From the NCBI GenBank assembly GCA_020345805.1, contig CP070772.1:1472613-1521209 (forward strand): DNA of 48,597 bases, written 5' to 3'. This DNA comes from Phycisphaerales bacterium (lineage in GTDB: Bacteria > Planctomycetota > Phycisphaerae > Phycisphaerales > SM1A02). The notes under the pieces were generated by a model. That model worked only from the letters and a program-made list of their open reading frames with translations. It was not told the DNA's origin and did not search any database. Position 1 is the first letter of the stretch; every line of letters begins with the position of its first letter. Of this stretch, positions 12,551 through 33,904 are shown piece after piece. A program made the position numbers and the translations under genes.

Positions 12551-13171
12551 CTATTGCGGGGGCCGCGCTCCGGCTAAACGATCGGGGTTGGCACTCCGCC
12601 GTCCTATCTGCAGCGACCGGACGCCCTTGCCGTCCACTGGGGGCCGGCCGTCGGCAGGCTCGAAGCGGCAGCTCAGATCCGCCCCGCAGAGGGGATACTC
12701 GTCGCCGCCCGCGTCCATCAGGCTCAGGCCGAAGGTATAGGCCGGGCCGAACAGCGAAGAGATGCCCTTGCAGCTCTCAAGCACCTCACCCTCGATGCGC
12801 CACTCGGCGATGGGCAGGGCATCTGGGCGGTCAGTCTGCCCTCGATGGTGGAGGGTGAAGACGAACGCGCCGTCCTCGTAGGTGGGCGTGGGGTGAGGCT
12901 CGGAGAAGAGGTAAGCCTCGACCTGGATGAGATCGGGATAGCCGTTGCCGTTGGTGTCGATGGGCTTGGCCCCCACGCGGAGTGCGATGGCGTTGGCCAA
13001 GGCGTCTGCCGGCGTGCGCGGGGCGGGCCGGGGTTCGGGCGGCAGGGGCCGGCCGTCGCTTGATTGCACTTTCGTGGTCTCGCAGCCGATCGTCGTCGAC
13101 AGCAGCAGGCATAGCGCCGTTGAGACAGGAAGTAACGATCGGCCGCCGCCGGTTATGTTCCCGCGTTTCAT
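12551..13171 (-). CDS. Putative lipoprotein at the end of the T2SS operon
   Basis: The 206-residue product is not a recognised family. It starts at ATG 13171 with a strong SD (GAGGAAGGGG) only 33 nt after gspD, so it is almost surely co-transcribed with the T2SS genes. Residues 1-30 are a signal peptide with lipobox STTIGC, giving a lipidated Cys30. A Pro/Arg-rich spacer follows, then a region with DTNGNGYPDLIQV (residues about 73-85), a Ca2+-loop-like pattern known from dockerins and FG-GAP proteins. The rest looks like a beta-rich domain. Position and lipidation make a pilotin-like or outer-membrane accessory role for the secretin plausible, but there is no visible similarity to GspS. Confidence 0.8.
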   Translation of the reverse strand: MKRGNITGGGRSLLPVSTALCLLLSTTIGCETTKVQSSDGRPLPPEPRPAPRTPADALANAIALRVGAKPIDTNGNGYPDLIQVEAYLFSEPHPTPTYEDGAFVFTLHHRGQTDRPDALPIAEWRIEGEVLESCKGISSLFGPAYTFGLSLMDAGGDEYPLCGADLSCRFEPADGRPPVDGKGVRSLQIGRRSANPDRLAGARPPQ

Positions 13172-13204: not shown

Positions 13205-16200
13205 TTACTCATATTCCCGGGCGGGGTCCGCCGGCTTGTCCGGCTTGTCCAGCCGGTTGCCCTCGGCATCGTACAAGCCGCCCGTGCCCTGCAGCGAGCT
13301 GCGACGGATCTGCTCCTTGATGTGCTCGGGTACGGTCAGGCGATCGATCTCCAGGTCGGTCAGCTCGTCGACGACCTCCAGCTCGGCGGGACTTTCGATC
13401 ACGTGCGGCGTGAGCACGATGAGCAGTTCGGTCTTCACGGTGGTTTCGTTGTGGCTCCGGAAGAGCGCTCCGATGAGCGGGATGTCGCCGAAGAACGGCA
13501 CCTTGCGGTCGCGGCGCTCGAAGCGATCGGCGATCAGGCCGCCGATGACCACGGTCTGCCCGTCATAGACGGTCACCGTGGTGTCGGCCGTGCGCTTGGT
13601 GATGATGGGCGCTTCGAAGTTCTCGCTGATCTGGGTGGTGCGATCGGAGAGATTGGAGATCGATGGGCTGACGCTCATGCGCACGAAGCCGTCGGGGTTG
13701 ATGGAGGGGGTGACCTCAAGGATCACGCCGGTATCCTCCGGCCCGATGGTGGAGGTGGCCTGGCCGGACTCGGAGACGGATGAACTGGTGATGACGCTGA
13801 TGGTTTCGCCGACCTGGATTCGGGCCGGCTCGTTGTTGGCCGCCATCACCGAGGGATTGGACAGCAGCTGCACGCGTCCCTGGGACTGGAGGGCCTTGAT
13901 GAGCAGATCGAAATCGGTGCCCGCGATTGACAGGCTGGGCACGCCCACCCCGGTGACGAACGCACTGGCCAGTCCGAAGCCGGCGGTGATGTCTGTACCG
14001 TCCATGTCGGCACGCAGCTCCATGTCCACGCCCCAGTCGTCGCCGGTGTCGATGGTGACCTCGGCGAGCATGACCTGGATCAGGACCTGGGGCGGGTCGA
14101 TATCGAGCTGCCGGATCATGTCCTTTACCCGTTCCATGTACCTTGGCGAAGCGCTGACAAGAACGGTGTTGGACTTGATGTCCCCCTGGATGGTGATCTC
14201 GCGCTCCAGCAGCCGCGCCCGGGAGCCGATCTCCTCGGCGCTGAGCGTGCTGATGAGCTTCTGCTGCTCCTGCTCGACGAATTCGCCGACCACTCTGGCT
14301 ACTTCCTCGGCCTGGCTGTTGCGCAACTGATAAACGAACACTTCACGTTCGTTGGCCTCCAGGGCATCCAGTTCCTCCACCACCGTGGCGACCAGGTCCA
14401 GGTAGGTGGGCGAACCGGAAACGAGCAGGCTGTTGGTGCGGCTGTCCACAGTGATGGAAAGCTGCTGGCGCTCGTCCGGCACGGCGGTGAGCTCAGTCCC
14501 GCCGAGCGTGGCGATGGGCTGTGATCCGGGAGGCCCCATGTCGGGCATGCCCAGTTCATCGGTCTCCTCGCCTTCGCGCGGCTTGAGCACGTAGATGTTG
14601 CTGCCCTGACGGAGATTGAAAAGATCGGTGAGGATCTCGGCCATGGCCAGGGCGTCGGCGTTGACCAGCTTGAAGATGCGGATGTTCTTCGCCCCGACGC
14701 TGGACTCGTCCAGGTCGCGGATCATCTGCTCGATCATCCCCATCGACTGCTTGGGCGCGGAGACGATGACGGTGTTGGTGCGCAAGTCCGGGGTGAGAGT
14801 GATGGATTCGCGGACGGCCGCACTGACCTCCATCTCCGACATTTCCTGCTCGATTTCCCCTTCCTGCTCCTTGGCGATTTCGCGGAGGTAATTGATGACG
14901 GTGGCTTGCCGCGACGTGCGCCGCCCACCGATGCCCCGGCCGGAAAGCACGTTCTCGATCAGGCTGACCGTCTCCAGGGCGTTGGCGGAAGTAAGGGCGA
15001 TGTACTTGATCTCCACCACCGTGGCGGGCTTCGCCCCGTCGAGCTGGGCGACCAGATCACGGATGCGGCTGACATCGCCCTCGGGGGCATTGACGATCAC
15101 GGCGTTGAGCCGCTCGTCGGCGGTGACCTGCACGGTGTCGGCCCCGCGGGAACGGTTGGCCTCCTGCACGTAGAGATCGTCAAGCAGGGCGACGATGTCG
15201 GTGGCCCGGCTGGTGGCCAGCGAGATGACTTCAAACTCCCGGTCACCCGCGGTGTCGGCGGCGAGAACCACCTCGATCAGACCCTCCAACACCTGAAGGT
15301 TCTCATCGCTGGCGGCGATGATGAGGCTGTTGCTGGCGGGGTCCGGCTCGATGGTCACACGATCAGATGGCGTGGCGGATTCGCCCAGCGATTGCTGGCG
15401 CTCCCGCATGAGGCGCTGGAGGCGCGGGGCGAGCGTCTCGGCCCTGGTGGTGGCATCCAGAGCGATCACGTGCAGACCGATGGCCGGGTTGACCGGGGCC
15501 GCTTCCAGCTTGGCGACCAGATCTTCGATCGCCCCCAGATCCTCGGTGTTTGCCGCCACCAGCAGGCTGTTGGTGCGCAGGTCCGTCAGCACCAGGGGCA
15601 TCTGCGAGCGCTTCAGGTCCGCGGGCAGATCGGCGTAGCGGCGCTCCATGATCTGGCTGACCGCCTCGGCGATGCGCTCGACGTTGCCCGCGTCAAGCGG
15701 GATGACATGAACCAGGGCGGCATCGCCTATGGTGGAGTCGTCAAGCTCCTCGGCCAGGCGCTTGACCACTTCAAACGACTCGTTGCCTGCGGCGACTACG
15801 AGACTGTTGGTTCTCGAATCGGCGACGATGGTCGCCTTCTCCAGGTCGGCAGTCTCCGGCTGGACCTTGCGCAGCCGCTCCAAGCGGGCGTCCATCAGCC
15901 GCTGGATCAGGCTCGCCAGACGATCGGCGGAGGCGTTCTCTAACGCGATGCGGCGAATCTCGCGCAAGTCCGGGGCGATTTCCACATCCAGTGCATCGAT
16001 CAAGCCCTCAAGCACTGCGAAGCTGCGCGGGCTGGTGGTGACGATCAGCGCGTTGGTGCGCTCGTCGGACCGGATGATCACCGCATCCTCGGCCCGGATC
16101 GCCTTGGAGCGCACCTGCTGCTGGAAGAGATCGGTAAGCGTGCTGGCGAGGCGCGAGGCGGAGGCGTGCTCGACGGGATAGATGCGCACCGCGGCGCTGG

Positions 16201-19200
16201 GCGAGGCGGCCTCGACGTCCAGCATCGCCACCAGCTCGCCGATCACTTCGAGGTTCTTCGGCGTGCCGACGAGCACAAGGGCGTTAAGCTGCGGCTCGGC
16301 CCGGATCACCAGATGGGTCATGGGCTGGAAGACGTCCGATTCGATCACCCGCCCGCCGTTCTCTTCCATGCGGGCCATGCGCAGGCGGCCGATCTGCCTC
16401 TGCAGGGGATTTGATTGCGGCAAGGTGCCCACGCCTTCCACGAGCACCGCGTGGAGCGTCTCGGCGAGATCGGTCGCGTCGGCGAAGGTCAGTTGTACGA
16501 TGCGGGGCTCGATCCAGCCGTTGGCGATGTCCGCATCCAGTCGCGTGGCCAGCACCTCCACGAACGCCACCGCGTCTTCCTTGCCCGCCACGATCACCGC
16601 GTTGGTGCGATCGTCGATGGTGACGGCGATTTCATCCAGCAGCGCCTTGCCCGCAACGCCTCCGGGCAGGCCTTCAATGTCCGTGCCCGGCACGCGGGCC
16701 AGCTCCTTGCCCTGGTCGAACATATCCCGCACGATCCGGGCGAACTGATCGGCGGCGATATTCTCCAGCGGGAAGATCTGAACGGTCACCGCACCGGTGA
16801 TCGGGAGCTTGTCGAGCGTGACGAGCAGATCCTCGATCGCCGCGACATTCTCCGGCGTGGAGCTGATGAGCACGGCGTTGAGCTGCTCATCGGGAATCAC
16901 CCGGATCGGCGTGGTCAGATCGAGCATCAGGTCCGGCTCGTCCAGGCCGTCGCGCCGCACGGAGAGCCTGCGCACCTGCTCCTGAACGGCCCGGGCCAAG
17001 TCGGTATCAGCCTGCTGATCGGAAGGCGAGAGGATCTGCTCGAGCAGGTCCGCCATTGCGGTGGCCTCGGAGTTCTCCAGCCTCACCAGGCGCATCTGTG
17101 ATTCGGCCAGCGCGGGCTCGGAATCGACGGCCTTGAGCAGGCCGACGATGGTGTCCTGATCGATGGGGTTGGCCACCACGATCAGCGCGTTGCGCCCCTG
17201 AAGAACGGAAACCTTGATCGGTTCGGTAACCAGCCTCGAGACCGAATCGTCCGGCTGAGGCTGATCCAGGCCGATCGTCCGGATGACATCCTGCGCGGCC
17301 TCAGGCGAAATGTGCTGAAGCTCGATGATGAAGATCCCCTGCCCGGCGGCGGGGGAAAGTTCATCCATCTGCATCACGGTGGCGCGGATCTCTTCGAACA
17401 GGGGTCCGGTCGAGGCGATCACCAGGTTGTTGCCCGGGGCATCGACCTGGATTGACAGCGGCTGGTTGTCCTGGCCGGCCTTGGCCTGATACGCCTGCTC
17501 AATGGCCGCGGCCACCCGGCTTGCCGGAGCGGCGTTCAGCTTCAGCACGTGCACCGCCAGGCCCTTGTCAGACGCTTCCTGCTGAAGCGCCTCGGCCAGG
17601 GCCTTGATCTGGGCGAACTCCTCATCCTCTGCCCTGACGATGATGGTGTTGGAGGACTTGTCGCCCACGATGCGCAGGGCCTTGGGGCCGCGCGTGCCGG
17701 AGTCTTGGTCATAGAGCGTGCTCAGTGACTGGGCAAGCTGTTCCGGATCGCCGGATTTCACCACGATCAGTTGCGGCGGGGGCAGCTTGGCGTAGTCGGC
17801 CACGTCTAGCTCGGTGACGATCTGGCGGATCTTGTTCACGTTCTGGCGCGATGCGGAGACGATGACGGAATTGGTCTGCTCCTCAGCCGAAGCGCGTACC
17901 CATTCCTCGGCCTCCACCAGCACGGTGGGCACGTAGACGTCGCGCTGATCTTCCTCGCCGCGGCCGCGTCGGGGCTCGCGCTCCTGCACGCCGCGCTGTC
18001 GCTCGATCTGCCCGCGGAAGGCTTCGTTGATCGCCCTCGCCACCGATCGGGCGTCGGCGTAGGTGAGCGGGATCACTTCAAGCTGAAGCGACGAGTCATA
18101 CTCCTGGCTGTCCAGCTTGGCCAGAAGAGCCCGGATGTCGGCCCACTCGGTTTCGTCGGCGGAGATGACCAGGCTGTTGGAGGCCGGGTCGGCGACGATC
18201 CGCACGTTACGCTTACCCGGCGTGTCCGCCTCGATCGCATAAGGCCCGTAGAAGACCGAAAGCGCTTCCTGGATCTGCTCGGCCTTGGCGAACTGCAGCG
18301 GCACGAAATCGGTGGTGCGCTGAACCTGCGACGGCTGGTCGATCTGGTCGATGATCTTCATCAACTGATCGAACTGATCGGCCGCGGCGGCGATGATGAG
18401 CTGGTTCTCCAGCCGGTTGTAATCCACGCGCGGTTCGGGCTGGCGGTCGCGACCGCCCTGACCCCAGGTCCGGGTCATCTGCGAAAGGGTGAAGGAAACG
18501 TCCTCCGCCATCGCGTGCTTGAGAGTGATGATCCGGTACTCCACCGGGCTGACCGCGGGCACCTCGTCAAGCTGCTTCACCAGCGATTCGATCACCGGGA
18601 ACGACTCGGCGGTGGCGGTGACAATGAGGCTGTTGGAGCGCTCGTCCGCGACGACCTTGGCGATCACCTCCACCGCCTCGGCCTCCTCGTCGAGCTTGAT
18701 AGTGATGCCGCGGGTTTCACCGCGCGAATCGAGCTGAAGCGTCTCGGTGAGGATGCGCACCGCTTCCTCGGCCTGCGCGCCTTCCAGGGCGTAGGTGCGG
18801 ATGATCGTCTCGTCGCTGGCCTTGGGGGCATCGAGCTGCTCGATGAGCGCCATGACCTGGGCGTACTGCTTCTGAGGAGCGTTGACGATGAGGCTGTTGG
18901 TGCGGATGTCGGAGGTGACGATCACGCCCTGGGTGGTGCGGCGGCCGAAGTGCTCGCCGATGATGCGGGCGATCTCCTCAGCGTCGCCGTCCTTCAATGC
19001 GATGATCTCGATGGTGCGGTCGCCCGACACATCCGGCTGATCGAGTTCCGCGATGAGGTCGCGGATGGTGGCCATCTCCTCGGCATCGGCGGATACGACG
19101 AGACTGTTGGCCGAGGGGCTGGCGGCGATGGTCGCGGCGGGCTCGGGGGCGTTGATCGCCCGGGCCCGTTCGACGAGGAAGCGCTGAAGAGTGCGGGCCA

Positions 19201-22200
19201 GTTCCACCGCCTGGGCGAACTGCACCGCAACCACCTGGATCTGCTGATCCTGCGGGGCGACCTGCGTGTCGATGGAGGCGATCAGTTCGGCGATCTCCGC
19301 ATGCTCCTTAGAGGTGCCGGAGATGATCAGCGTGTTGCTCTTCTCATCGGTCCGTACCTTCACCTCGTGGGGATTGGCCGGCATCCACCAGCGGCGGGCG
19401 GTGCTCGCATCGGTGAAGAGTTCGCGCACCACCTCGGCGACGGTGTTCAGGTCCGCGTTGGCGATGCGGTACAAGCGCACCCCACGCCGCTCGCCCTCGC
19501 CGGGCGGCGCGTCCAGAGTCTGAATGAGATCTTCCACCAGGTCGAACTTGTCCCCCTCGCCGGTGGCGATGAGCGCGTTCAGCCGCTCATCGGCCCGCAC
19601 CGCCACGGACCCGCGGCTGCGCTGCGTCTGAGAGCTGCGGCGCGGATAGTAGAAGAAGTAGAACGGCTCCTGGTTCCACGTCAGATTCTGGATCAGGTCG
19701 TTGACCGTCTGCTCGATCTCCGAGGCCCGGGCGTGCTGAAGCTGGAACACGCGGAAGGTCCAGACATCCGTGGCCTGGGGCGAATCGAACTGCTCGACCA
19801 TCCGCTGGATCTGTTCAAAGTCGTCATCGGACGCCGCCACCAGCAGGGTCTTGCTTGCCGAGTCTCCGATGATGGAGATCCGCCGGGCCTGCTCGCGCCG
19901 GCCGCGGCCGGTGGAAGCGATCTTCGCCCGGTCGTCGTAGAAGCGCTGTACTGCATCGGCTACCGCGGAGGCATCGGCCCGTTCGAGCATGATGGTGCGG
20001 ATCTCGAATTCGCGGGCCGCATCGCGATCGATCTCCGCCAGCACCTCGTCGATCTCGGCGTTGACTTCCTCGCTGGCTCGCACGAGAAGAACGCCGGAGT
20101 TGTCATCGGGCACGATGAGAGTGGTGGTGTCCCGCTGCTGGTCGGAGCCGATGACCACCTGCCGCAGCAGATCGGCGACCTGGTTCGGCTGGGCTGCCTT
20201 CAGCTCGACCACCCGCAGCGGATGGATGTCCTGACCGAGCTCCTGATCAAGCTCTTCCAGGAGAGTGTCGACTTCTTCGAGCTGGCGGGGCGAGGCGGTG
20301 ACGAGCAGCGTGTTCGTGCGTTCATCGGCGGCGAAGTCCGGAACCACGCCGGTGGTTCGTGCCCTCCGCCCGGCGCCCTGATATCTCGCCCGGAAGAAGG
20401 TCCGCAACGTTCCCGTCAGATCTTGTGCCTTGGCGTAGCGGAGTGGATAGAGCTTCAGCGTGGTGCGCTCACTGACCGGAGTCTGGTCGATCAGGGCCAC
20501 GAACTTGTCGATGAACCGGATCGCCTCCGGCGGGGCGCTGACCACGAGGGTGTTGTTTTCCGCGTCGGCGGCAAGCTGGATGCGCTCCGGATCGAACACC
20601 GCCTCCACGCTGCGGCCGTCGGTCATGAGCTGCATGGCGAGCTTGCGCATGCGCTGGGCCTGCCGGCCGCGCCCGCGGCGGGCATCGGAGCCGGAGATGA
20701 GTCCGCGAATGCTGTTGGCGGCGTGATCGGCGGTGGTGGTGTCCAGCGGATAGACCTTCACCACAATCTGCTCGGCGAGCGGGCCGTGGGAAAGGGCCGC
20801 CACGAGCTGCCCGACGGTCTCGAAATCGCGATCGTTGCAGGTCACCACCAGCGAATTGCTCATGGCGTCGGCGACCACCGCGATGCGCCGGCGAAGATCA
20901 CCGCGGTTGCCTCCCGGCGGGGTGATCTGGGCCAGGGTCTGGCTGATCAGTTGCGACATCGCCTCGGCGTCGGCGGTCTCGGGAAGGCCGATGTAGCGGA
21001 TCGTGCCCGGCGCGGCAGGAATCTGCTCCTGAACCTGCCGGGCCAGGTCGGCCACCCGCTCGATCGCCCGCGGCGAGCCCACCACGATAAGGCTGTTGGT
21101 CTCTGGATCGACGGCAATGGTGATGTCGGAGCCGCTGTTGATGGATTCCATCAGCCCGGCAAGGGCCGGATCGAGCGCGGGCCCGGCGTCTTCTTCCTGC
21201 ACTGCCGCGGGAAGCGAATAGAACAGGCGACTAAGAAACGGAAGAGGTGCGGATGAAGAGACGCCGCCCGGTTCCTGAGCGGTTTCGTCATCGCCGTACT
21301 TCTTCAGAAGATCGTCGACCGTAATGACCTCGACTTTCGTGGACCCGCTGCGATCGAGCATGCGCTTCAGCGCGGCGGCGACGTCCGCGGCGCTGGCCCG
21401 CGAGGGGTCGATGGGGATCATCCTCATCTGCCTCGCCGCGGCGATGGTGGCGCTGTCGATCTTCTCGACGACCTGGCTGATCATCTCGAACTGCGCGTCG
21501 GTAGCGCGGATGAGCAGGCTGTTGCTGGTGGTGTCGATGCGGATCGTGGGGGCCGGCCCTTCATCACCTGAATCGTCAAAGAGCGCTTCCAGATTTTGAG
21601 CCAGCTCGGCGGCATCGGCGTTGGCAATCGCCAGCACCCGCACGGACCGGTCGATCACGCCCGCTTCGGCCGGATCCACATCCAGCTCCATCACCATCTG
21701 CTCGGCGATGTTCAGCACCGCCGGCGGAGCGGAGATCACCACCGCGTTGAGACGGTTGTCCGCGGCCACACGTACTTCCGGCCCGGTTTCGGGCATCACC
21801 CGGCCGCGCCTGGCCGAATCGATGCGCAGCCACAGCGGTATTTCTTCGGTGGAGAGCAGTTGCTCGACGATGGGGGCGACGGTCTCGGCGCGGGCGTGCT
21901 TCAGGAAAACCGCCCGCACCTGGGCCTGGTCGGCGGCGACGCCGCTGTCCAGCGGCTCGATGATCTTCGCCACCTCGTCCAACTGCGCGGGAGTAGCGGT
22001 GACGATCACCGTGTTGCTGGACGGCTCGCCGGTCACGGTGATGGGCGGCTCGCCCGGCCTGGTTGCGCTCTGCGCGGCGGTGGCGGCGCGGACCGCTTCG
22101 GCAACTTCCGCCGCATCGGCCTGGCTGAGGCTGAAGATACGGACCTCCAGCGCTTCGCCCTCGGCGCGGGGACGGTCAAGCTCGGCCGCCATCTGATCCG

Positions 22201-25200
22201 CCACGGGCAGAAGCTCGGCCGGCGCGCTGATGAGCAGGCGGTTGTTCGGAGCATCGGCAGTGATGGTCGGCTGGGCGATCGGGAGCCCCGCGCGGGAAGC
22301 GGCCTGGAGCGAAGCGGGCCAGCGGGAAACATCACGCAACAGAGGCGATACCGCCTGCGCCACCATCTGTGCATCGCTGTGCTGAAGCGCAACGACCTTC
22401 AGATCCATCTGCGGCGTACGGATCGCCTCGGCATCGCGCTTTGCCAGCAGGTCCATCGCCGCGGTCACCTCTTCGGCCTCGCCGATGACGAGCACCGCCC
22501 CCGACTGCGGCTCGGCGATCAGCTCCACCGTCGAGCGCCGCCCCGCGGGCCGCGTCGAGTCCAGAACCTGCCTCACCGTTCTTGCCAGCAGCATTGGATC
22601 GGCGCTGGCGGGGGTGAAGGTGTCGAAGGTCCGGCCGCCCGTCTCGTCCGGCTCGTCAAGCTGGGTGATGAGCGTTTCGGCGAGGGCCACCGTGCGCTGG
22701 GGTCCGGAGACGATGAGGCTGTTGGTGCGGGCGTCGGCCTCCACCCGGATCTTCGGGGTCAGGTCGAGCTGGCCGCGGCTGCGCCGGATTCGCTCCATCA
22801 TGATGCGGGGATCGCTGGAGAGCTGATCGGTGAGCAGGTTCTCAACGATGGAGGCGATGGCGGTCGCCTCGGCATGGGCCAGGCGGAAGGTCTTGGCGTC
22901 GATGGCGTCCATCGCCGGCCTTGCGTCCAGCGGCTCGATGAGTGATTCAACTTCCTTCAGATCCGCCTCCAGCCCCACGAGGATCAGAGCGTTGGAGCCG
23001 GGAGCGGCGATAAGGCGAACGTCGATCAGCTCGCCGGTGACCTTGCTGACAATCTGCCGCATCGCTCCGCTCAGCGAAGCGCTCACTTCGCTTGCATCGG
23101 CGAAGGTCAAAGGTCTCACCCGCACCACCGGATCGCCCACCGCGGCGGTTGCGCTGTCGAGCTGCTCGATGATCTCCTCGGCCACGGGCATGATGGACTC
23201 GGGCGCGGAGATGATGAGGGTGTTGGTCTTGCGGTCGGCGGTGACGTTGAGCAGCGCTTCGACATTGGCCCCGGCATCGGGGACGTCCTCCTGGATTCTC
23301 GTAAGGAGAATCTCGCGGAGCATGGATGCCATCGTCTCGGCCCGGGCGTTGTCCAGCCGGAAGAACCGCAGCGCGGTGGCCGGGCCTTCGCCCCTTGCGT
23401 CGAGTTCGACAAGCACCTGCTCCACGCGGTCGAAAATCTCCACCGGGCCGGAGACGATCAGAGTGCGGCTGACCGGCTCGGTGGTGACTGTCACCGGCAC
23501 GTGTCGATCGACACCGCTGGGGGTGAGCGTGCCGGATTGCGACAGTCGCTGAAGGGTGGCGGCCAGTGCGTTCAGGTCGGCATAGACGACCTTGTAGGTG
23601 CGAACTTCCGTGTCGTCGGTGAGCTTGGTGCGATCGAGCTGCTCGACGAGCTGCTCGAATCCCGCCATGCGCTGGATGGGGGCGTCCACGATGATCGAGT
23701 TGGTCTGCGGATCGGCCCGCACCACGACTTCGCGCGGCTCCTGCAGTTGCGGCATGGGCCGGCCGCGACGATCCACCGGCGGCGGAGGCTGGGGGAACAT
23801 GTCGTCGATGGTCTTGGCCAGCTCCTCGGCCCGGGCCACCTTCAACGGGAAGATGCGAATCTCCCTGCCTTCGGTGTCCAGCCGGTTGGCGGTGTTCAGC
23901 TCCGTGACGATCGCTTCGATCTCTTCCAGCAGGTCCGGATGGGCCGCGATGATCAGGGAATTCGTCTGGTCATCGGAGGAGATGTTGACGGGCTTGTCGT
24001 TGCGCTCCTCCAGCGGCCGCTGGTTGTACTGGCGGTTGAGCGCGTTGGCGAGGTTTGCCGCATCGGCGGTGCGGAGTTGGAGGATGCGCAACGGGGGCAT
24101 CTCCTTAGGTTCCATCACGTCCAGTCCCCGCACCAGGGCCTGGATGATGTCGTGCTGGTCGCGCTGGGCGGCGACGAGGATCGAATTGGTCCGCTCGATC
24201 GGCTCGAAGGTCGGAATGGGGCCGGCCCGCCCGCCGACCATGGTGAGATGGCTTTCCGCCAGGTCGCGAAGGAACTCCACCACTTCCGCAGCGTCGGCGT
24301 ACTGCAGGGGAATCAGCCGCACATCCGGCGGCGGGCCGATCGTGCCTTTCAACTGATCGAGGATCGCCGCGAAGCGGAACATCGCCTCGTCCTCGGCCAC
24401 CGCCAGCAGATTTCCGCCTTCCCGATCGACCTGGACGTCCACCGCGCGGGCGTCCGGATCGTCTTTCGTCTGATCCTGGTAAAGCTCAAGCGCCCGGTCC
24501 GCGATCTCCTGCGGATCGGCTCCGGTGATCTCGAAGACGCGCAGGGTGCGCGGAACCGGAACGGCCTGAAGATCCTTCAATACCTGCTCGGTCTGGGTGA
24601 AGGTGACTTCATCGCCGGCCACGATGAGCGTGCGCGACTTGGGCTCGGCCTGTATGAGAACATCCACCGGTTTGGAGCCGTCGGCCGGCTGCTCGCTGAG
24701 CACGCCTTGCCGGGAAAGCTCCATCAACGTGCGGGCGATCTGATCCGGATCGCCCCGGTCTATGTGATAGGTGCGGAGCCTTGCGGTGGGCGGCAGTTCC
24801 ACCCGATCGAGCTGTTCGACCAGGGCTTCGAAGGAAGCCTTACGCTCGGCGGGGGCTTCGACTATCAGCGTGTTGGTCGCCGCGTCAGCGGAAACATACA
24901 CATCGCGCGGCTGGCGGAGGTGAGGCATGGGCCGGCCCCGCCGATCCATGGGCATGGGCGGCTCGGGATAGAGCTTGTCCAGTGCCGCGGCCAGGTCCAT
25001 CGCCCTGGCCCGTTGAAGCGCGAAGATCATCGTCTCTCGCTCGGCACCGGTCTCCCCGGCCCGGTTCACGCCGTCCACGAACTCCTTGATCTCGGCGAAG
25101 ACATCCTCGTGGGCGGTGACGATGAGGGTGTTGGTGCCGGCGTCGGCGGAGATGTCCACCGGCTTGTCGCGGCGCTGCTCGGCCGGACGCGAGTCGTAGC

Positions 25201-27520
25201 GCTGACGGAGCATGGTTGACAGTTGCAACGCATCGGCCGCACGAACCTGAATCAGCTTCAGCGGCGGAAGCTCAGTCTGCTCGAAGGTGTCCAGATCGCG
25301 CACGTAGCGCTCGATCATCTGGTGCTGAATCGGCTCGGCGACCACGTATAGGCTGTTGGTCTGCTCGATGACCTCGATCTGAGGCTCGGGCACGGATCGG
25401 ACGGGCTCGACCGGAGCGGTCCGGTCCAGCAGCTCAAGCAGTGGGGTGACCACCTCCGAGGCTCGGGCCTGGCGCAGGGCGATCATCCGCCCGGTCCGGG
25501 GCGGGGGAAGGAGGGGACGGGTTTCGGCCAGCGCCTGCTCGTACTTTCGCACTGCCTCCGTCGTGCCGGTCACAATGAGGTTGCCGGTCAGCTCGTCGAG
25601 GCGGGTGAGGGGACGCGGCAGATCGTCGGCGTCGTAGCCGGCGGCAAGCTGGTCGTACGTTTCCTCCACGCGCTGAAGGAGAAGATCCACCTGCTCCACG
25701 CCGGCGATGGTGATGACCCGGAACTGCACATCCGCGGGATCCGGCTTGTCCAGAGTTTCGATCAGCGATCCGATCGCCTCCAACTGCTCGGGCACGGCGG
25801 TGACCAGGAGCAGATCGAGTTCGTCGATCGGCTCGAAGGTCGGCTCGTGGAAGGTGGTGCCGTCACGCGGCTTGAGGAGCCGACCGGTGAGCGATTGCAG
25901 CGGGGCGACGAGGCGGGTGGGGCGTGCGTTGCGGATCGTGACGTGACGAGTCTCCCGGTCGATCACCGTATTGGATTCGATCATCCGCATGGCGCCGGCG
26001 AAACGATCCAGGGCCGCGGCCGAGCCGATCATGGTCAGCACACGGTTCTCTTCATCCAGTTCCAGGCTGAGGGCGAATTGCGGATCGTCACCGTCGACCT
26101 GACGATCGTACAGGTCGCGGGTGCGTTGCAGCAGCGCGGCGGGCTCGGGGGAAGTCAGTCGCAGCAGGCGCACCTGTCTGTCGACCTTAACCGGCGTGTC
26201 GAGCACCGGCACGATGGACCTGACCGCCTCCACATCGCCGGGCAAGCCGGCCACGATCAGCGACCGGCCGTCCGGGCCGGGCAGAAGCCTGGTCATGTTC
26301 TGCTGGCGGCGATTGAGAAGCCCCTGCAGTGCGCGGCTCATGGCTTCCGGCCGAGCGTGCCGAAGGGCGATGACCGTGATCTGCCGATCCTGATCGGCCG
26401 CGGCGGCCGAATCGACCGGACCATCGATCTCATCAAGCAGCAACGCGGCTTCGGCGACCTCGATATCCGAACCGATCACCGTGAGCCGGCCGGTATCCTC
26501 AAGCGGCAAAAGGGTGGGGCGCTTGTCTTCGGGCAGGTGCTTATAGAGAAGGCTGAGCAGTCTGACCGCCTCGGCCGGGGCCAGCCGTGACAGCGCAAAC
26601 GTCCGCGTCGAGCGCGACTGCGCTCCGGAGGGAACATCCAGCAGGTCGATGGTCTCGGCCAGCTTCTCGATCCGCGCTTCCTGGCCCTTTGCGATGATGG
26701 AGTTGGTGCGCTCGTCGAAGGAGATGTTGAGACCGGACATCTCCTGTTCCTGGATCTTCTGGGGCTTGTTCTGCTTGTCCATCACGATCTTCTCGACCGT
26801 CCTGGACAGCAGGGCCTTGAGTGGCTCCATGAGATCCTTGGCCTTGGCGTGCTTGATGACGAAGATCCTGATAGCGCCTTCCGGATCCTCGCGATCGAGC
26901 TCTTCGATGATCCTGACCAGGCGGCGAACCTGCGCCGCGGTCTCTGTGATGACCAGCGCGTTCTGCTCTTCGAGCGCGGCGACCGATCCGTAGGACGCGA
27001 CCATCTGCGCGAGCTTCTCCGCCATCGGGCCGGCGAGTGCCAGATCCAGGGGGCGCACCACGGTGATGATCTGATCGTCGGTTACTTCGGCGGGGATTAT
27101 GCCGGTGAAGGTGGGGATATCCTCCTTCTGCATCTCCGTGAGCTTCTGGAGATACAGCATGTCATCGTCGACGCGAAGCATCACTCCCTTGGACTGCAGG
27201 ATGATGTTCAACACCTTCAGCGCTTCGGAGCGGGTGTAGATCTCCGGCGAGATGTAATCGAGCGTACCCTCCGGCGGCGGGGCTTCCCACACCACGGGCA
27301 GACCGGTAGTGCGCGAGAAGAAGCCGATGACCTGCTCGAAGGTCGCGCCCTTGAAGTTGAAGGTGATGTTTCGCAGCTCGCCGGTGGGGGCTGAGGCCGA
27401 CGTTTCAGCCGCCCCTCCCGAAGCGCCATCCGAGGATTGGGCTATGGTCGGCTCCGCCGGAACGAGTGCGGCCAGCGCGGCTGCCAGCGCAAGGGGGGCA
27501 CCCAACAGATTGATATGCAT
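13205..27520 (-). CDS. gspD: Giant type II secretion secretin GspD with about 52 N-type repeats
   Basis: This single open frame of 4,771 residues starts at ATG 27520 (SD GGAGG, 7 nt away). It has a signal peptide (about residues 1-28), an N0/STN-like domain (about 48-126: NITFNFKGATFEQVIGFF and a second half ending MLYLQ) and a very long array (about 146-4473) of N1-type secretin domains. The array is followed by a normal secretin domain (about 4478-4708) with VLIQVMLAEV, LSNPSVMAANNEPARIQVG, TGVILEVTPSI, a VYDGQTVVIGGL strand and VPFFGDIPLIGALFR. Each repeat has the strand signature D-x-x-(T/S)-N-(S/T)-L-I-V and a helix ending in x-x-L-D. By eye I count 52, mean spacing about 83 residues; ordinary GspD has about 650-700 residues and three such domains. 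Secretins form multimeric outer-membrane channels, and the N domains form the periplasmic vestibule. It lies in a gsp operon, so T2SS rather than pilus secretin is favoured. Confidence 0.97.
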   Translation of the reverse strand: MHINLLGAPLALAAALAALVPAEPTIAQSSDGASGGAAETSASAPTGELRNITFNFKGATFEQVIGFFSRTTGLPVVWEAPPPEGTLDYISPEIYTRSEALKVLNIILQSKGVMLRVDDDMLYLQKLTEMQKEDIPTFTGIIPAEVTDDQIITVVRPLDLALAGPMAEKLAQMVASYGSVAALEEQNALVITETAAQVRRLVRIIEELDREDPEGAIRIFVIKHAKAKDLMEPLKALLSRTVEKIVMDKQNKPQKIQEQEMSGLNISFDERTNSIIAKGQEARIEKLAETIDLLDVPSGAQSRSTRTFALSRLAPAEAVRLLSLLYKHLPEDKRPTLLPLEDTGRLTVIGSDIEVAEAALLLDEIDGPVDSAAAADQDRQITVIALRHARPEAMSRALQGLLNRRQQNMTRLLPGPDGRSLIVAGLPGDVEAVRSIVPVLDTPVKVDRQVRLLRLTSPEPAALLQRTRDLYDRQVDGDDPQFALSLELDEENRVLTMIGSAAALDRFAGAMRMIESNTVIDRETRHVTIRNARPTRLVAPLQSLTGRLLKPRDGTTFHEPTFEPIDELDLLLVTAVPEQLEAIGSLIETLDKPDPADVQFRVITIAGVEQVDLLLQRVEETYDQLAAGYDADDLPRPLTRLDELTGNLIVTGTTEAVRKYEQALAETRPLLPPPRTGRMIALRQARASEVVTPLLELLDRTAPVEPVRSVPEPQIEVIEQTNSLYVVAEPIQHQMIERYVRDLDTFEQTELPPLKLIQVRAADALQLSTMLRQRYDSRPAEQRRDKPVDISADAGTNTLIVTAHEDVFAEIKEFVDGVNRAGETGAERETMIFALQRARAMDLAAALDKLYPEPPMPMDRRGRPMPHLRQPRDVYVSADAATNTLIVEAPAERKASFEALVEQLDRVELPPTARLRTYHIDRGDPDQIARTLMELSRQGVLSEQPADGSKPVDVLIQAEPKSRTLIVAGDEVTFTQTEQVLKDLQAVPVPRTLRVFEITGADPQEIADRALELYQDQTKDDPDARAVDVQVDREGGNLLAVAEDEAMFRFAAILDQLKGTIGPPPDVRLIPLQYADAAEVVEFLRDLAESHLTMVGGRAGPIPTFEPIERTNSILVAAQRDQHDIIQALVRGLDVMEPKEMPPLRILQLRTADAANLANALNRQYNQRPLEERNDKPVNISSDDQTNSLIIAAHPDLLEEIEAIVTELNTANRLDTEGREIRIFPLKVARAEELAKTIDDMFPQPPPPVDRRGRPMPQLQEPREVVVRADPQTNSIIVDAPIQRMAGFEQLVEQLDRTKLTDDTEVRTYKVVYADLNALAATLQRLSQSGTLTPSGVDRHVPVTVTTEPVSRTLIVSGPVEIFDRVEQVLVELDARGEGPATALRFFRLDNARAETMASMLREILLTRIQEDVPDAGANVEALLNVTADRKTNTLIISAPESIMPVAEEIIEQLDSATAAVGDPVVRVRPLTFADASEVSASLSGAMRQIVSKVTGELIDVRLIAAPGSNALILVGLEADLKEVESLIEPLDARPAMDAIDAKTFRLAHAEATAIASIVENLLTDQLSSDPRIMMERIRRSRGQLDLTPKIRVEADARTNSLIVSGPQRTVALAETLITQLDEPDETGGRTFDTFTPASADPMLLARTVRQVLDSTRPAGRRSTVELIAEPQSGAVLVIGEAEEVTAAMDLLAKRDAEAIRTPQMDLKVVALQHSDAQMVAQAVSPLLRDVSRWPASLQAASRAGLPIAQPTITADAPNNRLLISAPAELLPVADQMAAELDRPRAEGEALEVRIFSLSQADAAEVAEAVRAATAAQSATRPGEPPITVTGEPSSNTVIVTATPAQLDEVAKIIEPLDSGVAADQAQVRAVFLKHARAETVAPIVEQLLSTEEIPLWLRIDSARRGRVMPETGPEVRVAADNRLNAVVISAPPAVLNIAEQMVMELDVDPAEAGVIDRSVRVLAIANADAAELAQNLEALFDDSGDEGPAPTIRIDTTSNSLLIRATDAQFEMISQVVEKIDSATIAAARQMRMIPIDPSRASAADVAAALKRMLDRSGSTKVEVITVDDLLKKYGDDETAQEPGGVSSSAPLPFLSRLFYSLPAAVQEEDAGPALDPALAGLMESINSGSDITIAVDPETNSLIVVGSPRAIERVADLARQVQEQIPAAPGTIRYIGLPETADAEAMSQLISQTLAQITPPGGNRGDLRRRIAVVADAMSNSLVVTCNDRDFETVGQLVAALSHGPLAEQIVVKVYPLDTTTADHAANSIRGLISGSDARRGRGRQAQRMRKLAMQLMTDGRSVEAVFDPERIQLAADAENNTLVVSAPPEAIRFIDKFVALIDQTPVSERTTLKLYPLRYAKAQDLTGTLRTFFRARYQGAGRRARTTGVVPDFAADERTNTLLVTASPRQLEEVDTLLEELDQELGQDIHPLRVVELKAAQPNQVADLLRQVVIGSDQQRDTTTLIVPDDNSGVLLVRASEEVNAEIDEVLAEIDRDAAREFEIRTIMLERADASAVADAVQRFYDDRAKIASTGRGRREQARRISIIGDSASKTLLVAASDDDFEQIQRMVEQFDSPQATDVWTFRVFQLQHARASEIEQTVNDLIQNLTWNQEPFYFFYYPRRSSQTQRSRGSVAVRADERLNALIATGEGDKFDLVEDLIQTLDAPPGEGERRGVRLYRIANADLNTVAEVVRELFTDASTARRWWMPANPHEVKVRTDEKSNTLIISGTSKEHAEIAELIASIDTQVAPQDQQIQVVAVQFAQAVELARTLQRFLVERARAINAPEPAATIAASPSANSLVVSADAEEMATIRDLIAELDQPDVSGDRTIEIIALKDGDAEEIARIIGEHFGRRTTQGVIVTSDIRTNSLIVNAPQKQYAQVMALIEQLDAPKASDETIIRTYALEGAQAEEAVRILTETLQLDSRGETRGITIKLDEEAEAVEVIAKVVADERSNSLIVTATAESFPVIESLVKQLDEVPAVSPVEYRIITLKHAMAEDVSFTLSQMTRTWGQGGRDRQPEPRVDYNRLENQLIIAAAADQFDQLMKIIDQIDQPSQVQRTTDFVPLQFAKAEQIQEALSVFYGPYAIEADTPGKRNVRIVADPASNSLVISADETEWADIRALLAKLDSQEYDSSLQLEVIPLTYADARSVARAINEAFRGQIERQRGVQEREPRRGRGEEDQRDVYVPTVLVEAEEWVRASAEEQTNSVIVSASRQNVNKIRQIVTELDVADYAKLPPPQLIVVKSGDPEQLAQSLSTLYDQDSGTRGPKALRIVGDKSSNTIIVRAEDEEFAQIKALAEALQQEASDKGLAVHVLKLNAAPASRVAAAIEQAYQAKAGQDNQPLSIQVDAPGNNLVIASTGPLFEEIRATVMQMDELSPAAGQGIFIIELQHISPEAAQDVIRTIGLDQPQPDDSVSRLVTEPIKVSVLQGRNALIVVANPIDQDTIVGLLKAVDSEPALAESQMRLVRLENSEATAMADLLEQILSPSDQQADTDLARAVQEQVRRLSVRRDGLDEPDLMLDLTTPIRVIPDEQLNAVLISSTPENVAAIEDLLVTLDKLPITGAVTVQIFPLENIAADQFARIVRDMFDQGKELARVPGTDIEGLPGGVAGKALLDEIAVTIDDRTNAVIVAGKEDAVAFVEVLATRLDADIANGWIEPRIVQLTFADATDLAETLHAVLVEGVGTLPQSNPLQRQIGRLRMARMEENGGRVIESDVFQPMTHLVIRAEPQLNALVLVGTPKNLEVIGELVAMLDVEAASPSAAVRIYPVEHASASRLASTLTDLFQQQVRSKAIRAEDAVIIRSDERTNALIVTTSPRSFAVLEGLIDALDVEIAPDLREIRRIALENASADRLASLIQRLMDARLERLRKVQPETADLEKATIVADSRTNSLVVAAGNESFEVVKRLAEELDDSTIGDAALVHVIPLDAGNVERIAEAVSQIMERRYADLPADLKRSQMPLVLTDLRTNSLLVAANTEDLGAIEDLVAKLEAAPVNPAIGLHVIALDATTRAETLAPRLQRLMRERQQSLGESATPSDRVTIEPDPASNSLIIAASDENLQVLEGLIEVVLAADTAGDREFEVISLATSRATDIVALLDDLYVQEANRSRGADTVQVTADERLNAVIVNAPEGDVSRIRDLVAQLDGAKPATVVEIKYIALTSANALETVSLIENVLSGRGIGGRRTSRQATVINYLREIAKEQEGEIEQEMSEMEVSAAVRESITLTPDLRTNTVIVSAPKQSMGMIEQMIRDLDESSVGAKNIRIFKLVNADALAMAEILTDLFNLRQGSNIYVLKPREGEETDELGMPDMGPPGSQPIATLGGTELTAVPDERQQLSITVDSRTNSLLVSGSPTYLDLVATVVEELDALEANEREVFVYQLRNSQAEEVARVVGEFVEQEQQKLISTLSAEEIGSRARLLEREITIQGDIKSNTVLVSASPRYMERVKDMIRQLDIDPPQVLIQVMLAEVTIDTGDDWGVDMELRADMDGTDITAGFGLASAFVTGVGVPSLSIAGTDFDLLIKALQSQGRVQLLSNPSVMAANNEPARIQVGETISVITSSSVSESGQATSTIGPEDTGVILEVTPSINPDGFVRMSVSPSISNLSDRTTQISENFEAPIITKRTADTTVTVYDGQTVVIGGLIADRFERRDRKVPFFGDIPLIGALFRSHNETTVKTELLIVLTPHVIESPAELEVVDELTDLEIDRLTVPEHIKEQIRRSSLQGTGGLYDAEGNRLDKPDKPADPAREYE
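23399..24541 (-). repeat. Five-domain block, copy B (GspD residues 994-1374)
   Basis: This block covers N-type repeats 12-16, directly following copy A. It repeats the same order of five distinct repeat subtypes, indicating a segmental duplication of a multi-domain unit. Confidence 0.85.
24566..25726 (-). repeat. Five-domain block, copy A (GspD residues 599-985)
   Basis: This block covers N-type repeats 7-11 and aligns in register with copy B, offset 389-391 residues at all five signatures (646/1036, 721/1111, 796/1186, 882/1273, 962/1351). Shared details outside the general signature include RRGRPMP, DKPV-I-S and SRTLIV. Confidence 0.85.
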
Positions 27521-27570: not shown

Positions 27571-28542
27571 TTACGGATTCAGGGCCGATCTGTCGTTGAG
27601 ATTTCTGCCCGCCTGCACCAGGAAGTGGCGATCATCGATGCGAAACACGGCCGAATCGCCCCTCAGGGAGGCAAAAACGGCCTTTCCGATACTCTGCCCG
27701 ACCCTGAGGATGCGCGTCTCGCCGGTGGAAGAATTCCGCAGCCAGACCTCCTCGCCGGCCTGACTTTGCGCCACTCCCGTCACCACCCATTGCTCGTAGG
27801 GAAACTCCGGCGGGGACGGCGGGGGCGAAGGTGCCGCCTCCGGGGCGGCGGGAGGCGGAGCAGGCCGCGGGGGCCGCAGGCGAAACGGATTGGATTCCAC
27901 CAGCGATGCCAGCCGCTGAAATCGGCTGCGGTCATAAGCCGCTGGCGCAGCCTCCGCCGGCGAACGACCGGGCAGGTAGAGCGTGGTGAGCCGAACTGTG
28001 AAGCCGAATCGCTCACCATTGTCTTTCGGATCCAGCTTCAGATAATCGATGCGCTTCAGCCACGGCTCGGCCTCGATGCGATCGACAAGCTGCATCACCT
28101 GTGCGAAGCTCCCTTCGCCGGAGATCCATCCGTCCAGCTCGACCAGATCGATCTCGTCGCGCAGCGCATCCCAGGATGCGCTGCGTGGGAATGCCCTGCG
28201 CGCGGGCGACTGCCTGGACGACCGCGAGCCGGTTCCCACCGTCGCTCCGGCAACCTTGACCGTTTCGGCAATGCGATTCAACCGCTGTCGCAGGTGGGCG
28301 TCGACCTCTTCTTTGTCGCTTCCGAGAGTTCGGTCGGCATAGGAAGTCAATTGCCGCTCAAGGGCCGGCATGTCGTCGAGGCGGTTCCGTGACTTATCTA
28401 CGGCGGCCTGCGCGTCAGCGATCTGCCCGACGAGGTCGCGGCGGGGACCGAAGAATACCGCTTCTGCGCCGCTCCACAGGAGGAGGCATGCGATAAGCAG
28501 CGCAACCAGCGCACCGGCGATCATCATCGGCCGGGGGGTCAT
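27571..28542 (-). CDS. GspM-GspC fusion (T2SS inner-membrane assembly protein)
   Basis: The 323-residue protein has a short cytoplasmic start, one membrane helix (about residues 7-24) and a periplasmic coiled coil (about 35-100). A PilO/GspM-like ferredoxin-fold region follows (about 125-192), then a Pro-rich linker (222-248). The C-terminal domain (251-316: QWVVTGVAQS, ILRVGQSIGKAVFASLRGDSAVFRIDDRHFLV) resembles the HR domain of GspC and PilP. In typical systems GspM binds GspL while the GspC HR domain contacts the secretin N0 domain, so one chain may here link platform and channel. The start overlaps the gspL stop by 4 nt (ATGA); gspD follows after 50 nt. No PDZ domain or separate gspC is seen. 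Domain calls rest on pattern and context. Confidence 0.8.
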   Translation of the reverse strand: MTPRPMMIAGALVALLIACLLLWSGAEAVFFGPRRDLVGQIADAQAAVDKSRNRLDDMPALERQLTSYADRTLGSDKEEVDAHLRQRLNRIAETVKVAGATVGTGSRSSRQSPARRAFPRSASWDALRDEIDLVELDGWISGEGSFAQVMQLVDRIEAEPWLKRIDYLKLDPKDNGERFGFTVRLTTLYLPGRSPAEAAPAAYDRSRFQRLASLVESNPFRLRPPRPAPPPAAPEAAPSPPPSPPEFPYEQWVVTGVAQSQAGEEVWLRNSSTGETRILRVGQSIGKAVFASLRGDSAVFRIDDRHFLVQAGRNLNDRSALNP

Positions 28543-30077
28543 GAAGCGCCCCCTTCCCCCCCGGAGCTTCCGGTTGCATCGCCGGCGTTCTGTTCACCCT
28601 CGATCGGCGGCGCGCTTTCCACGGACTGAAGGCGATACTTGAACCCGAACGGCAATCGCCTGCCTCCCTGGGCGTCGGTGCCGCTGGAACTGGTCACGTA
28701 CCACTCGGTTCGGACCAGCGCTTCGCGGAGGGCGTCGGCGGTTGCCCGGTCCTTCGCCTCGCCGTCCACGAGGATCGCCAGCTCCTTGGGGGCGGACCAT
28801 TTGTTGCCGGCGGCGGCCCGGTCGTATTTGACTCCGCGAAAACTCAGCGACCCGGTCCACGAATCGAGCACTACTTCATTGGCAGGCGGCAGGATCTCGT
28901 TGAGGAACCGCAGATGGGCCGTCCAGTCCGCGCGGGCCGTCTCCCACTGTCTGAGATGTTCCAGCTTCGCCCCGTCGCGCTGGTAGCGATAGTCATCGGT
29001 CGCCAGCCCGGCCCTCTGGCTTCGCAGATACTCAAGATCGGTGCGGAGGCCGCGGAGATGAAGCTTGCCCATCGTCCAGGCGGCCACGATCAGAACCAGG
29101 ACCGCGCCGACGGCGATGAGGGCTCGGCGCCGCTTCTGCCCGGCGATGTCCGGCCCCCGGCGCGGATGGGCGAAGTCGATGGTCGGCAACTCGAGCACCG
29201 GCTCCAGCAGGAGGCCCGCGAGCGGCCAGAGACGATCCATGACGTTGTCCTGGGCCTCCACCAGCGGGTGAGAGTCGAGGATCTCCGTATTGACCTTGAG
29301 CATCTCACCGATGGGCCGGGCCGTCTGCTCGCTCACCAGACGATCGCCTATCACCACTGCGCTGCTCACTTCCGAAGTTTCCTCGACGATGCGGTAGCTC
29401 ATCCAGGTGCGGCGGGTTTCGGTGATGACCGATTCGGCGATCGCCCCGGTCTCGGTCAATCCGGAAGCTTCCGCGGCGCGTGAGAAGCGCACGATTCCGC
29501 CGGAGACGATGCAGAACTCCACGGACTCGCCGGTGATGTCCACGGCGAGGACGGTCTCGGCGGGATCGCTGCCCAGGCTTCGGAGTAGAGCGGCCGATCC
29601 CATCGCGCGGAGGGAGATGCGCCCGATCTCCAGGCCGGCAGCCGCGGCCACCCGCCGCGTGCGCTCGAGCACCTCCTCCGGCACCGCCACCGCCAGGACG
29701 GTGGTGCCGGCTTCCGTATGCTCGACCGGGACATAGTCGATCACCGCATTCTCGGCGTCGAAGGGAAGCTCCCGCTTCAGAGCCAGCCGCGTCATCTGCG
29801 GCAGTTCCACGTCATCCGTGCTGGGCAGCATCATCCGCTTCAGCCCCACGTGCTCGCGGGCCAGGGCGAAGATCGCTTCGCCCCGGGGGAAGCCGGCGGA
29901 CCTGAGGCACTCGCCCACCCAGCCGCCCAGCGCTTCGGCGTCACCGACATCCAGTCCTTCCGGCATGTCCTCCACCAGCACCTGCCGGATTCGGATCGTG
30001 CTCCGCTGCGGAGAGGCCAGAACCGCCCTCAGCCGGCGCCGTCCGATGTCGATCGCGATTGCGTGGTTTGAGGCCAT
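28539..30077 (-). CDS. gspL: GspL/PilM-PilN-like T2SS inner-membrane platform protein
   Basis: The 512-residue protein combines a cytoplasmic actin-like ATPase fold (about 1-290; phosphate-1 loop AIAIDIGRRRLRAV, later AVDITGESVEFC), a membrane helix (about 320-336) and a periplasmic PilN/GspL-like ferredoxin-fold domain (about 340-485). The tail is low in complexity and ends GGEGGAS. GspL recruits the secretion ATPase GspE and pairs with GspM. ATG 30077 (AAGG upstream) is preferred to the TTG one codon earlier. It lies 112 nt after gspK and overlaps the GspM-C fusion gene. Confidence 0.88.
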   Translation of the reverse strand: MASNHAIAIDIGRRRLRAVLASPQRSTIRIRQVLVEDMPEGLDVGDAEALGGWVGECLRSAGFPRGEAIFALAREHVGLKRMMLPSTDDVELPQMTRLALKRELPFDAENAVIDYVPVEHTEAGTTVLAVAVPEEVLERTRRVAAAAGLEIGRISLRAMGSAALLRSLGSDPAETVLAVDITGESVEFCIVSGGIVRFSRAAEASGLTETGAIAESVITETRRTWMSYRIVEETSEVSSAVVIGDRLVSEQTARPIGEMLKVNTEILDSHPLVEAQDNVMDRLWPLAGLLLEPVLELPTIDFAHPRRGPDIAGQKRRRALIAVGAVLVLIVAAWTMGKLHLRGLRTDLEYLRSQRAGLATDDYRYQRDGAKLEHLRQWETARADWTAHLRFLNEILPPANEVVLDSWTGSLSFRGVKYDRAAAGNKWSAPKELAILVDGEAKDRATADALREALVRTEWYVTSSSGTDAQGGRRLPFGFKYRLQSVESAPPIEGEQNAGDATGSSGGEGGAS

Positions 30078-30160
30078 CAAGGTCCTTGTTCGATGCTCAC
30101 ATCATCCTACACGGTGCGGGGATGGATCAAGAAGACAAGTGAGGGGAGGTGTCAGTGTTT

Positions 30161-30191
30161 GAGAATCGGGAAGCCGCAAGCGGCGAGAATC
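30161..30191. repeat. Hairpin flanked by direct repeats at the gspK/gspL junction
   Basis: GCCGC-AA-GCGGC (30173-30184) is flanked by two GAGAATC direct repeats (30161-30167 and 30185-30191), overlapping the gspK stop. A related core lies downstream of gspF at 40453. It might modulate transcription or mRNA decay within the operon. Confidence 0.4.
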
Positions 30192-33885: not shown

Positions 33886-33904
33886 GGGTGGCGCGCCGGG
33901 CCGG

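Follow-up and report, generated by a model that had tools for sequence, protein, structure and literature searches.

A single gene in the 48,597-nucleotide stretch of a Phycisphaerales genome analyzed here (the window) encodes a protein of 4,771 residues that, judged from its sequence, is the type II secretion secretin GspD, with an N0 domain, a pore domain, a type II secretion operon and 52 N-type domains in place of the three N1-type domains usual for GspD. We read the 52 domains as a variant of GspD because the number of rings is not constant among secretins; N-modules have been described as superposed rings whose number depends on the machine (PMC10550240). Studied secretins have about three to six ring-type domains, and here the array of 52 is conserved, with up to 63 domains in a relative. 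No description of giant or divided secretins was found in the literature searched, preprints and most subscription journals being outside its scope.

A GspD Secretin with 52 N-Type Domains

The giant gspD is one unbroken open reading frame on the minus strand (Table 1), and the plus-strand frame at the same positions has many stops. A sequence-only reading that preceded this analysis had claimed an uninterrupted frame without giving its strand, and the 4,771 residues indeed run without a break. The protein starts with what appears by eye to be a Sec-type signal peptide, MHINLLGAPLALAAALAALVPAEPTIAQ. The Pfam N0 model matches the single sequence weakly (aa 55-113, 12.9 bits against a cut-off of 27), and a profile of N0, N1, and N2 built from 21 giants matches the solved GspD chain 5wq7 at E 3.5e-30 over positions 7-231 of 250. 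At the other end, PF00263 is complete (1-169 of 169, E 2.1e-50), and a C-terminal profile matches the GspD pores in the PDB (6hcg, E 4.6e-68). The earlier claim of a GspD-type secretin is backed by the operon, the N0 domain and the pore. The NCBIfam equivalog TIGR02517 scores 1304.6 against 351.35 bits, a sum over 25 stretches that is inflated by the array.

The number of domains was counted in two ways. With Pfam Secretin_N, 49 stretches are matched at the permissive limit of E≤10, and a search of the own genome yields 47 matches at E≤0.001 inside the frame of the giant, 41 of them above the curated cut-off; the sequence-only reading had set fewer than about 10 as the count that would speak against it. 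Iterating an HMM on the giant's array together with the arrays of relatives yields 52 domains between about residues 144 and 4476, in agreement with the roughly 52 proposed from the letters alone; as this HMM was trained on the giants themselves, the count of 52 leans on them, and the Pfam count is the independent one. As controls, 20 whole-protein shuffles of the giant gave one match in total at a domain E≤1, and eight secretin frames of 687-770 aa gave two to four matches each. Domain starts along the array are mostly 66-106 residues apart, which means short linkers. The domains of the giant share a median pairwise identity of 26%, with 56% in the best pair. Domains 8-11 and 13-16 form a duplicated neighboring block with a lag of five, in which the best pairs (9/14, 10/15, and 11/16) reach up to 56% identity.

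Compared with GspD, PulD, and XcpQ (5wq7, 6hcg, 5zdh), the giant shares the N0 domain, the N1-type domains, the pore and the neighboring pseudopilin genes, but it has 52 N domains rather than three and 4,771 rather than about 650 aa, and no GspC was found.

Table 1. Features of the gspD locus, in positions of the window
Feature	Position	Strand	Basis or remark
Giant gspD, 4,771 aa: signal peptide, N0, 52 N domains, secretin pore	13205..27520	minus	ORF and profile searches
Signal peptide, aa 1-28	27437..27520	minus	By eye, rule of thumb
N0 domain, about aa 49-128	27137..27376	minus	Weak Pfam N0 and profile match to PDB GspD
Array of 52 N1-type domains, aa 144-4476, almost gapless	14093..27091	minus	Pfam, iterated HMM, AlphaFold
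Domain 25, aa 2018-2167, N domain split by a long insert	21020..21469	minus	Gene-division site in L075, L042/L076
Domain-25 insert, aa 2078-2129, predicted disordered; site of the relatives' signal-peptide-like segment	21134..21289	minus	Prediction
Secretin pore domain, aa 4543-4709	13394..13894	minus	PF00263, PDB GspD profile match
Small conserved gene downstream of gspD, lipoprotein-like start, candidate pilotin	12551..13171	minus	Locus scan and lipobox
GspM-like protein; C-terminal tail resembles GspC HR domain (suggestive)	27571..28542	minus	NCBIfam GspM below cut-off; hhalign
GspL/PilM-like protein	28539..30080	minus	PF11104; TIGR01175 below cut-off
GspK-like minor pseudopilin	30190..31782	minus	Below curated cut-offs; HHH_3 above
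GspJ-like minor pseudopilin	31745..32512	minus	Below cut-offs
GspI-like minor pseudopilin	32509..33072	minus	Below cut-off
GspH-like pseudopilin with prepilin motif	33091..33936	minus	Profile matches
GspG major pseudopilin	33905..34435	minus	TIGR01710 97 bits, above cut-off 88.85; PF08334
GspF-like inner-membrane platform protein, six kb upstream	40494..41681	minus	PF00482; TIGR02120 330 bits, below cut-off 424

Operon and Genome Context

The giant stands as gspD at the end of an operon in the order gspG-H-I-J-K-L-M-D, with all genes on the minus strand. Most of these genes (H-, I-, J-, K-, L-, and M-like) score under the curated cut-offs and GspG above its own; pseudopilin, GspL- and GspM-like genes are also kept beside the giants of relatives. 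The genome, a single contig of 3.94 Mb, contains five secretins and matches to T2SSE-type ATPases at 16 places. A secretin frame of 1,704 aa in the same genome (L066, 3583000-3592000) gives no match to the N-domain HMM. The small gene downstream of gspD adjoins the secretin in 43 of the 112 loci scanned, some of which share a genome, and a lax lipobox pattern is present in 29 of 33.

In PulD, GspC docks to the N0 domain. Searches with PF11356 found no GspC in the own genome and three weak matches in 61 relatives, none above the cut-off and all in genomes without a listed giant frame. The GspM-like protein consists in part of a Pro-rich linker and a conserved tail. The tail aligns with the HR domain of those GspC matches with an hhalign score of 21.3 (P 0.0012, probability just 19%), against a maximum of 12.4 in 30 column shuffles and 13.3 with four other profiles; Pfam and PDB sequence searches with the tail gave no supporting match. 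The resemblance is suggestive of a GspM that would hold N0, and we offer it as a lead.

Also encoded on the minus strand of the window are a DUF4953 met-zincin protein (6498-9251) and a C92 peptidase-like protein (41756-43108).

Conservation and Selection along the Array

Our search for giants was restricted to proteins of about 2,600-8,300 aa. Of the 1,387 candidates scored, 606 above about 2,600 aa share the C-terminus of the giant at E≤1e-10, which answers the question of other giants raised with the sequence-only reading. The 120 that were listed, the window's own protein (P0001) among them, have 2,643-5,312 aa and 28 to 56 domains, with exactly 52 in 41 of them. Their length follows 511 + 83 aa per domain, and thus varies in whole units.

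The domains correspond by position. In the 40 other relatives with 52 domains, a median of 51 of the 52 domains (minimum 38) have their reciprocal best match at the same index in P0001. In a sample of 20 relatives, the longest colinear run reaches 52 of 52 in four (L041, L037, L050, and L035), against a mean of 11.5-11.6 after shuffling; it is 43 and 44 in L052 and L053 of another family, and just 18 in L046 and L054, in which most of the matching lies toward the two ends of the array. Identity to P0001 in the 40 relatives is 45-62% in blocks of the array, 60% in the pore, 52% in N0 and 29% between non-orthologous domains. Domains 25, 26, 35-38, 41-44, and 47-52 are never missing in the 120 listed proteins, while the array varies most over domains 5-22, single positions of which are missing in as many as 77 of the 120 (domain 12). 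In six congeneric pairs of giants, all of them relatives and none including the window's own gene (L055-L057; L052, L053, L058, L065), dN/dS is 0.10-0.20 overall and 0.53 in the highest single domain. Every domain of these congeneric giants is under purifying selection by this measure.

These data bear on whether the giant frame is an artefact of assembly or of repeats, the collapse or expansion that the sequence-only reading had named as a danger. Tandem Repeats Finder gives just two rows, of 40-50 bp, and the identical domain order is found again in assemblies of other genera. Because the genome is a single contig, the DNA lacks long tandem repeats, many assemblies contain positional orthologues and the giants are under purifying selection, we rejected an artefact, the chance of which we regard as negligible.

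Distribution and Phylogeny of the Giants

Among the frames listed for 61 genomes of the own order, frames of at least 1,800 aa are present in 25 of the 37 genomes of the own family and in 11 of the 24 of other families. Among the matches listed, 12 of the 37 family members and 13 of the 24 other genomes have no such frame, and the giant is therefore dispensable. In 392 genomes sampled from the phylum, 14 of the listed frames exceed 2,400 aa, all in the own order, and the remaining listed frames all have at most 1,495 aa. Named records of giants (among at least 80 loci) are mostly from Phycisphaerales/Phycisphaerae, and others are labeled Verrucomicrobiota, including a Pedosphaera; the best frame has 3,877-6,169 aa in 15 such genomes. 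Full-length frames have 63 domains in L151 (6,169 aa), 47, 47, 42, and 42 in the Verrucomicrobial giants L152-L155, 41 in L157, and 50-52 in five Phycisphaerales. Overall, complete giants span 23-63 domains; Phycisphaerales have them, and so do Verrucomicrobiota, in which most of the array differs. One further Verrucomicrobial giant, L097, has a lone in-frame stop inside a domain, either a nonsense mutation or a sequencing error. A plasmid search returned ordinary secretins alone, at below 60% identity.

In a tree of 113 pore sequences rooted at the midpoint, a clade of 91 rows (support 100/96) holds 64 giants, 24 mid-size forms and three contig-cut frames, separate from 22 mostly short secretins. 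Within this clade, the Verrucomicrobial giants group with giants of the order's other families and with forms from Pirellulales and Gemmataceae. Similarity of the Verrucomicrobial arrays to P0001 is confined almost entirely to domains 42-48 and 50-52. As they and the arrays of L046, L054, and L089 match mainly in domains 42-52, most of the array in these proteins has probably expanded separately or diverged past recognition.

The same tree weakens the link that the sequence-only reading drew to the enlarged periplasm of planctomycetes. An enlarged periplasm has been described for Planctomycetia, e.g., Planctopirus and Gemmata (PMC5394234), but the Pirellulales and Gemmataceae secretins, although in the same clade as the giant, have just ~6-13 N domains and 1,077-2,267 aa (complete frames) and no giant array, and giants are also found in Verrucomicrobiota. 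The crateriform structures of planctomycetes were considered as support and rejected, Phycisphaeraceae being described as without them (PMC8882080).

A Divided Domain in the Middle of the Array

Domain 25 is the site at which the gene is divided in some relatives; the sequence-only reading had overlooked both this divided domain and the existence of two-gene forms. In L075 and in L042/L076 (one genome), the first frame stops once it has encoded the opening strand and helix of an N domain. The second gene then has a start codon, a signal-peptide-like segment and the rest of the N domain (strands and helix). Both halves have domain 25 of P0001 as their reciprocal best match, and the two genes of L075 overlap by ATGA. 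In these relatives, which nest among single-frame genomes in the pore tree, one N domain is thus apparently made up jointly by two exported chains. A divided domain in mid-array would mean that two chains can carry such an array, and it offers a handle for taking the machine apart.

Single-frame giants bear a possible trace of this arrangement. Their domain 25 carries a long insert in the same loop. In the window's own protein this insert is predicted to be disordered, and in the structure model the halves on either side of it fold together into a single N domain. Inserts of at least 25 aa, present in 108 of the 120 proteins having domain 25, were scored as signal-peptide-like if they held an uncharged hydrophobic 11-mer with a mean of 1.3 or more. 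Such an 11-mer is present in 89 of the 108, whereas of 14 other domains in which long inserts occur, 13 show a share of 0-8% and one, domain 1, a share of 18% (of 17). Lys/Arg is found upstream of the segment in 70 of the 108, and a motif resembling A-x-A lies downstream of it in 69. In addition, the single frame of L157 contains a complete signal-peptide-like sequence, located between its domains 26 and 27. The single-frame giants look like fusions that retain the trace of a second signal peptide.

It could also be that single-frame giants are still made as, or cut into, two chains at domain 25 by an internal start or by processing, such that the protein would be bipartite in all lineages of the order. 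The frequency of the 11-mer and its flanking residues, the full signal peptide within the frame of L157 and the true two-gene versions all argue for this. On the other hand, the segment in the window's own insert is degenerate (its best uncharged 11-mer reaches 0.95, under the threshold of 1.3), some inserts have no Met ahead of the segment, and no signal-peptide-like mid-array segment was seen in L151-L155, which include four Verrucomicrobial giants. Moreover, once the N-terminal half has been exported, an internal signal peptide would by the established topology rule arrive at the membrane the wrong way round for cleavage by signal peptidase. We consider two chains in all lineages distinctly unlikely.

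Division is not restricted to domain 25. In L099, L107, and L115, which adjoin the Phycisphaerales giants in the pore tree, the gene is divided inside other N domains. Short secretins from Verrucomicrobiota (L118, L129, L132, L134, L139, and L146) and from one Sedimentisphaerales genome (L109) are likewise split within an N domain, and the second of their pieces begins with a signal-peptide-like segment; they differ in that their pieces have about 400-720 aa and fall outside the giant clade.

Predicted Structure and Possible Architectures

AlphaFold models domains 34-41 as beta-alpha-beta-beta-alpha units, i.e., N1 folds. With a predicted model as query, 38 of the 39 Foldseek matches at E≤0.001 are secretin chains, and single predicted domains fit GspD at 1.5 Å over 64 residues. 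The same type of ring domain builds PilQ of Thermus thermophilus (N0-N5), whose six stacked rings are said to span most of a wide periplasm (PMC5745081) and measure about 35 nm (PMC4463427); PilQ differs in being a type IV pilus secretin of 757 aa with five N1-type rings. PulD, with N0-N3, is reported to reach about 20 nm into the periplasm (PMC6882859).

If 2.5-4 nm is assumed per ring, 52 rings would give a length of roughly 130-210 nm. We hold it to be somewhat better than an even chance that the rings stack into a sleeve, of the order of 150 nm in length, through which type II cargo would pass from the inner membrane to the outer-membrane gate. As in known GspD, about 15 chains would assemble via the pore; each N domain would pack sideways on its copy in the neighboring chain, as in the rings of GspD and PilQ, and N0 would be placed at the inner membrane. 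The sleeve would surround a long pseudopilus, which would push folded cargo upward, screened from the periplasm; as the two-gene relatives indicate, the array may consist of two exported chains that jointly complete domain 25. We favor this sleeve because of the GspD-type N0-N1-N2 and pore, the operon, the N1 folds, the positional orthology, the selection and the variation of length in whole units. Its exact length would not be essential, as domains 5-22 are so often missing in relatives. Against the sleeve stand the low pTM and the rmsd of 9-18 Å in the majority of multi-domain fits, the dispensability of the giant, the GspC that was not found, and the mass, which would be near 8 MDa for about 15 chains. 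The literature searched documents no periplasm of close to 150 nm in Phycisphaerae, and secretins of the same clade from groups that do have an enlarged periplasm number just ~6-13 N domains.

In its strongest form, the sleeve would be the longest protein conduit known in an envelope, a stack of ~50 rings that weighs around 8 MDa, measures at least 150 nm and is made of two exported chains whose half-domains join into one mid-tube ring, fixed since the ancestor of the order and paralleled in Verrucomicrobiota. We regard this full version as doubtful. A conserved array of this size points to one of two things: bacterial envelopes contain protein conduits of 100-200 nm, or a domain that builds rings has been put to a different use. 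As the number of domains is countable, from 23 to 63, the giants form a natural series in which one may ask if ring number sets the length of the tube and the width of the periplasm.

An alternative to the sleeve is that the C-terminal domains alone form rings and that the rest is a flexible chain of beads, which would serve as a periplasmic tether or brush, fixing the pore to the inner membrane or binding cargo. The monomer models, with a pTM of 0.30 (domains 34-41) and 0.49, are consistent with this, and so is the pattern of loss: domains 5-22 are often missing, 35-38, 41-44, and 47-52 never, and the part common to Verrucomicrobiota is the block 42-48 and 50-52. However, the interior domains are conserved about as well as the pore and are under purifying selection, the linkers are short, and the two-gene versions export two chains without a covalent link, a loss that a tether could survive only if the halves bind each other. 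We rate a bead chain as rather unlikely but a serious rival to the sleeve, which we favor.

A third architecture would have consecutive domains of one chain pack side by side into a wider ring, a coil or a cage, and so make no longer tube. N domains can bind laterally, and a tandem chain would offer lateral partners within itself; the models moreover fix no geometry between domains. We know of no precedent for consecutive N domains of one chain winding into a ring, coil or cage, and we think it very unlikely here. In each of two models, one pair of neighboring domains fits XcpQ N0-N2 (5mp2), at 3.9 Å over 127 and 5.2 Å over 134 residues. These best-fitting predicted pairs are compatible with the N1-N2 arrangement of XcpQ, in which the domains are consecutive along the axis, as in a sleeve.
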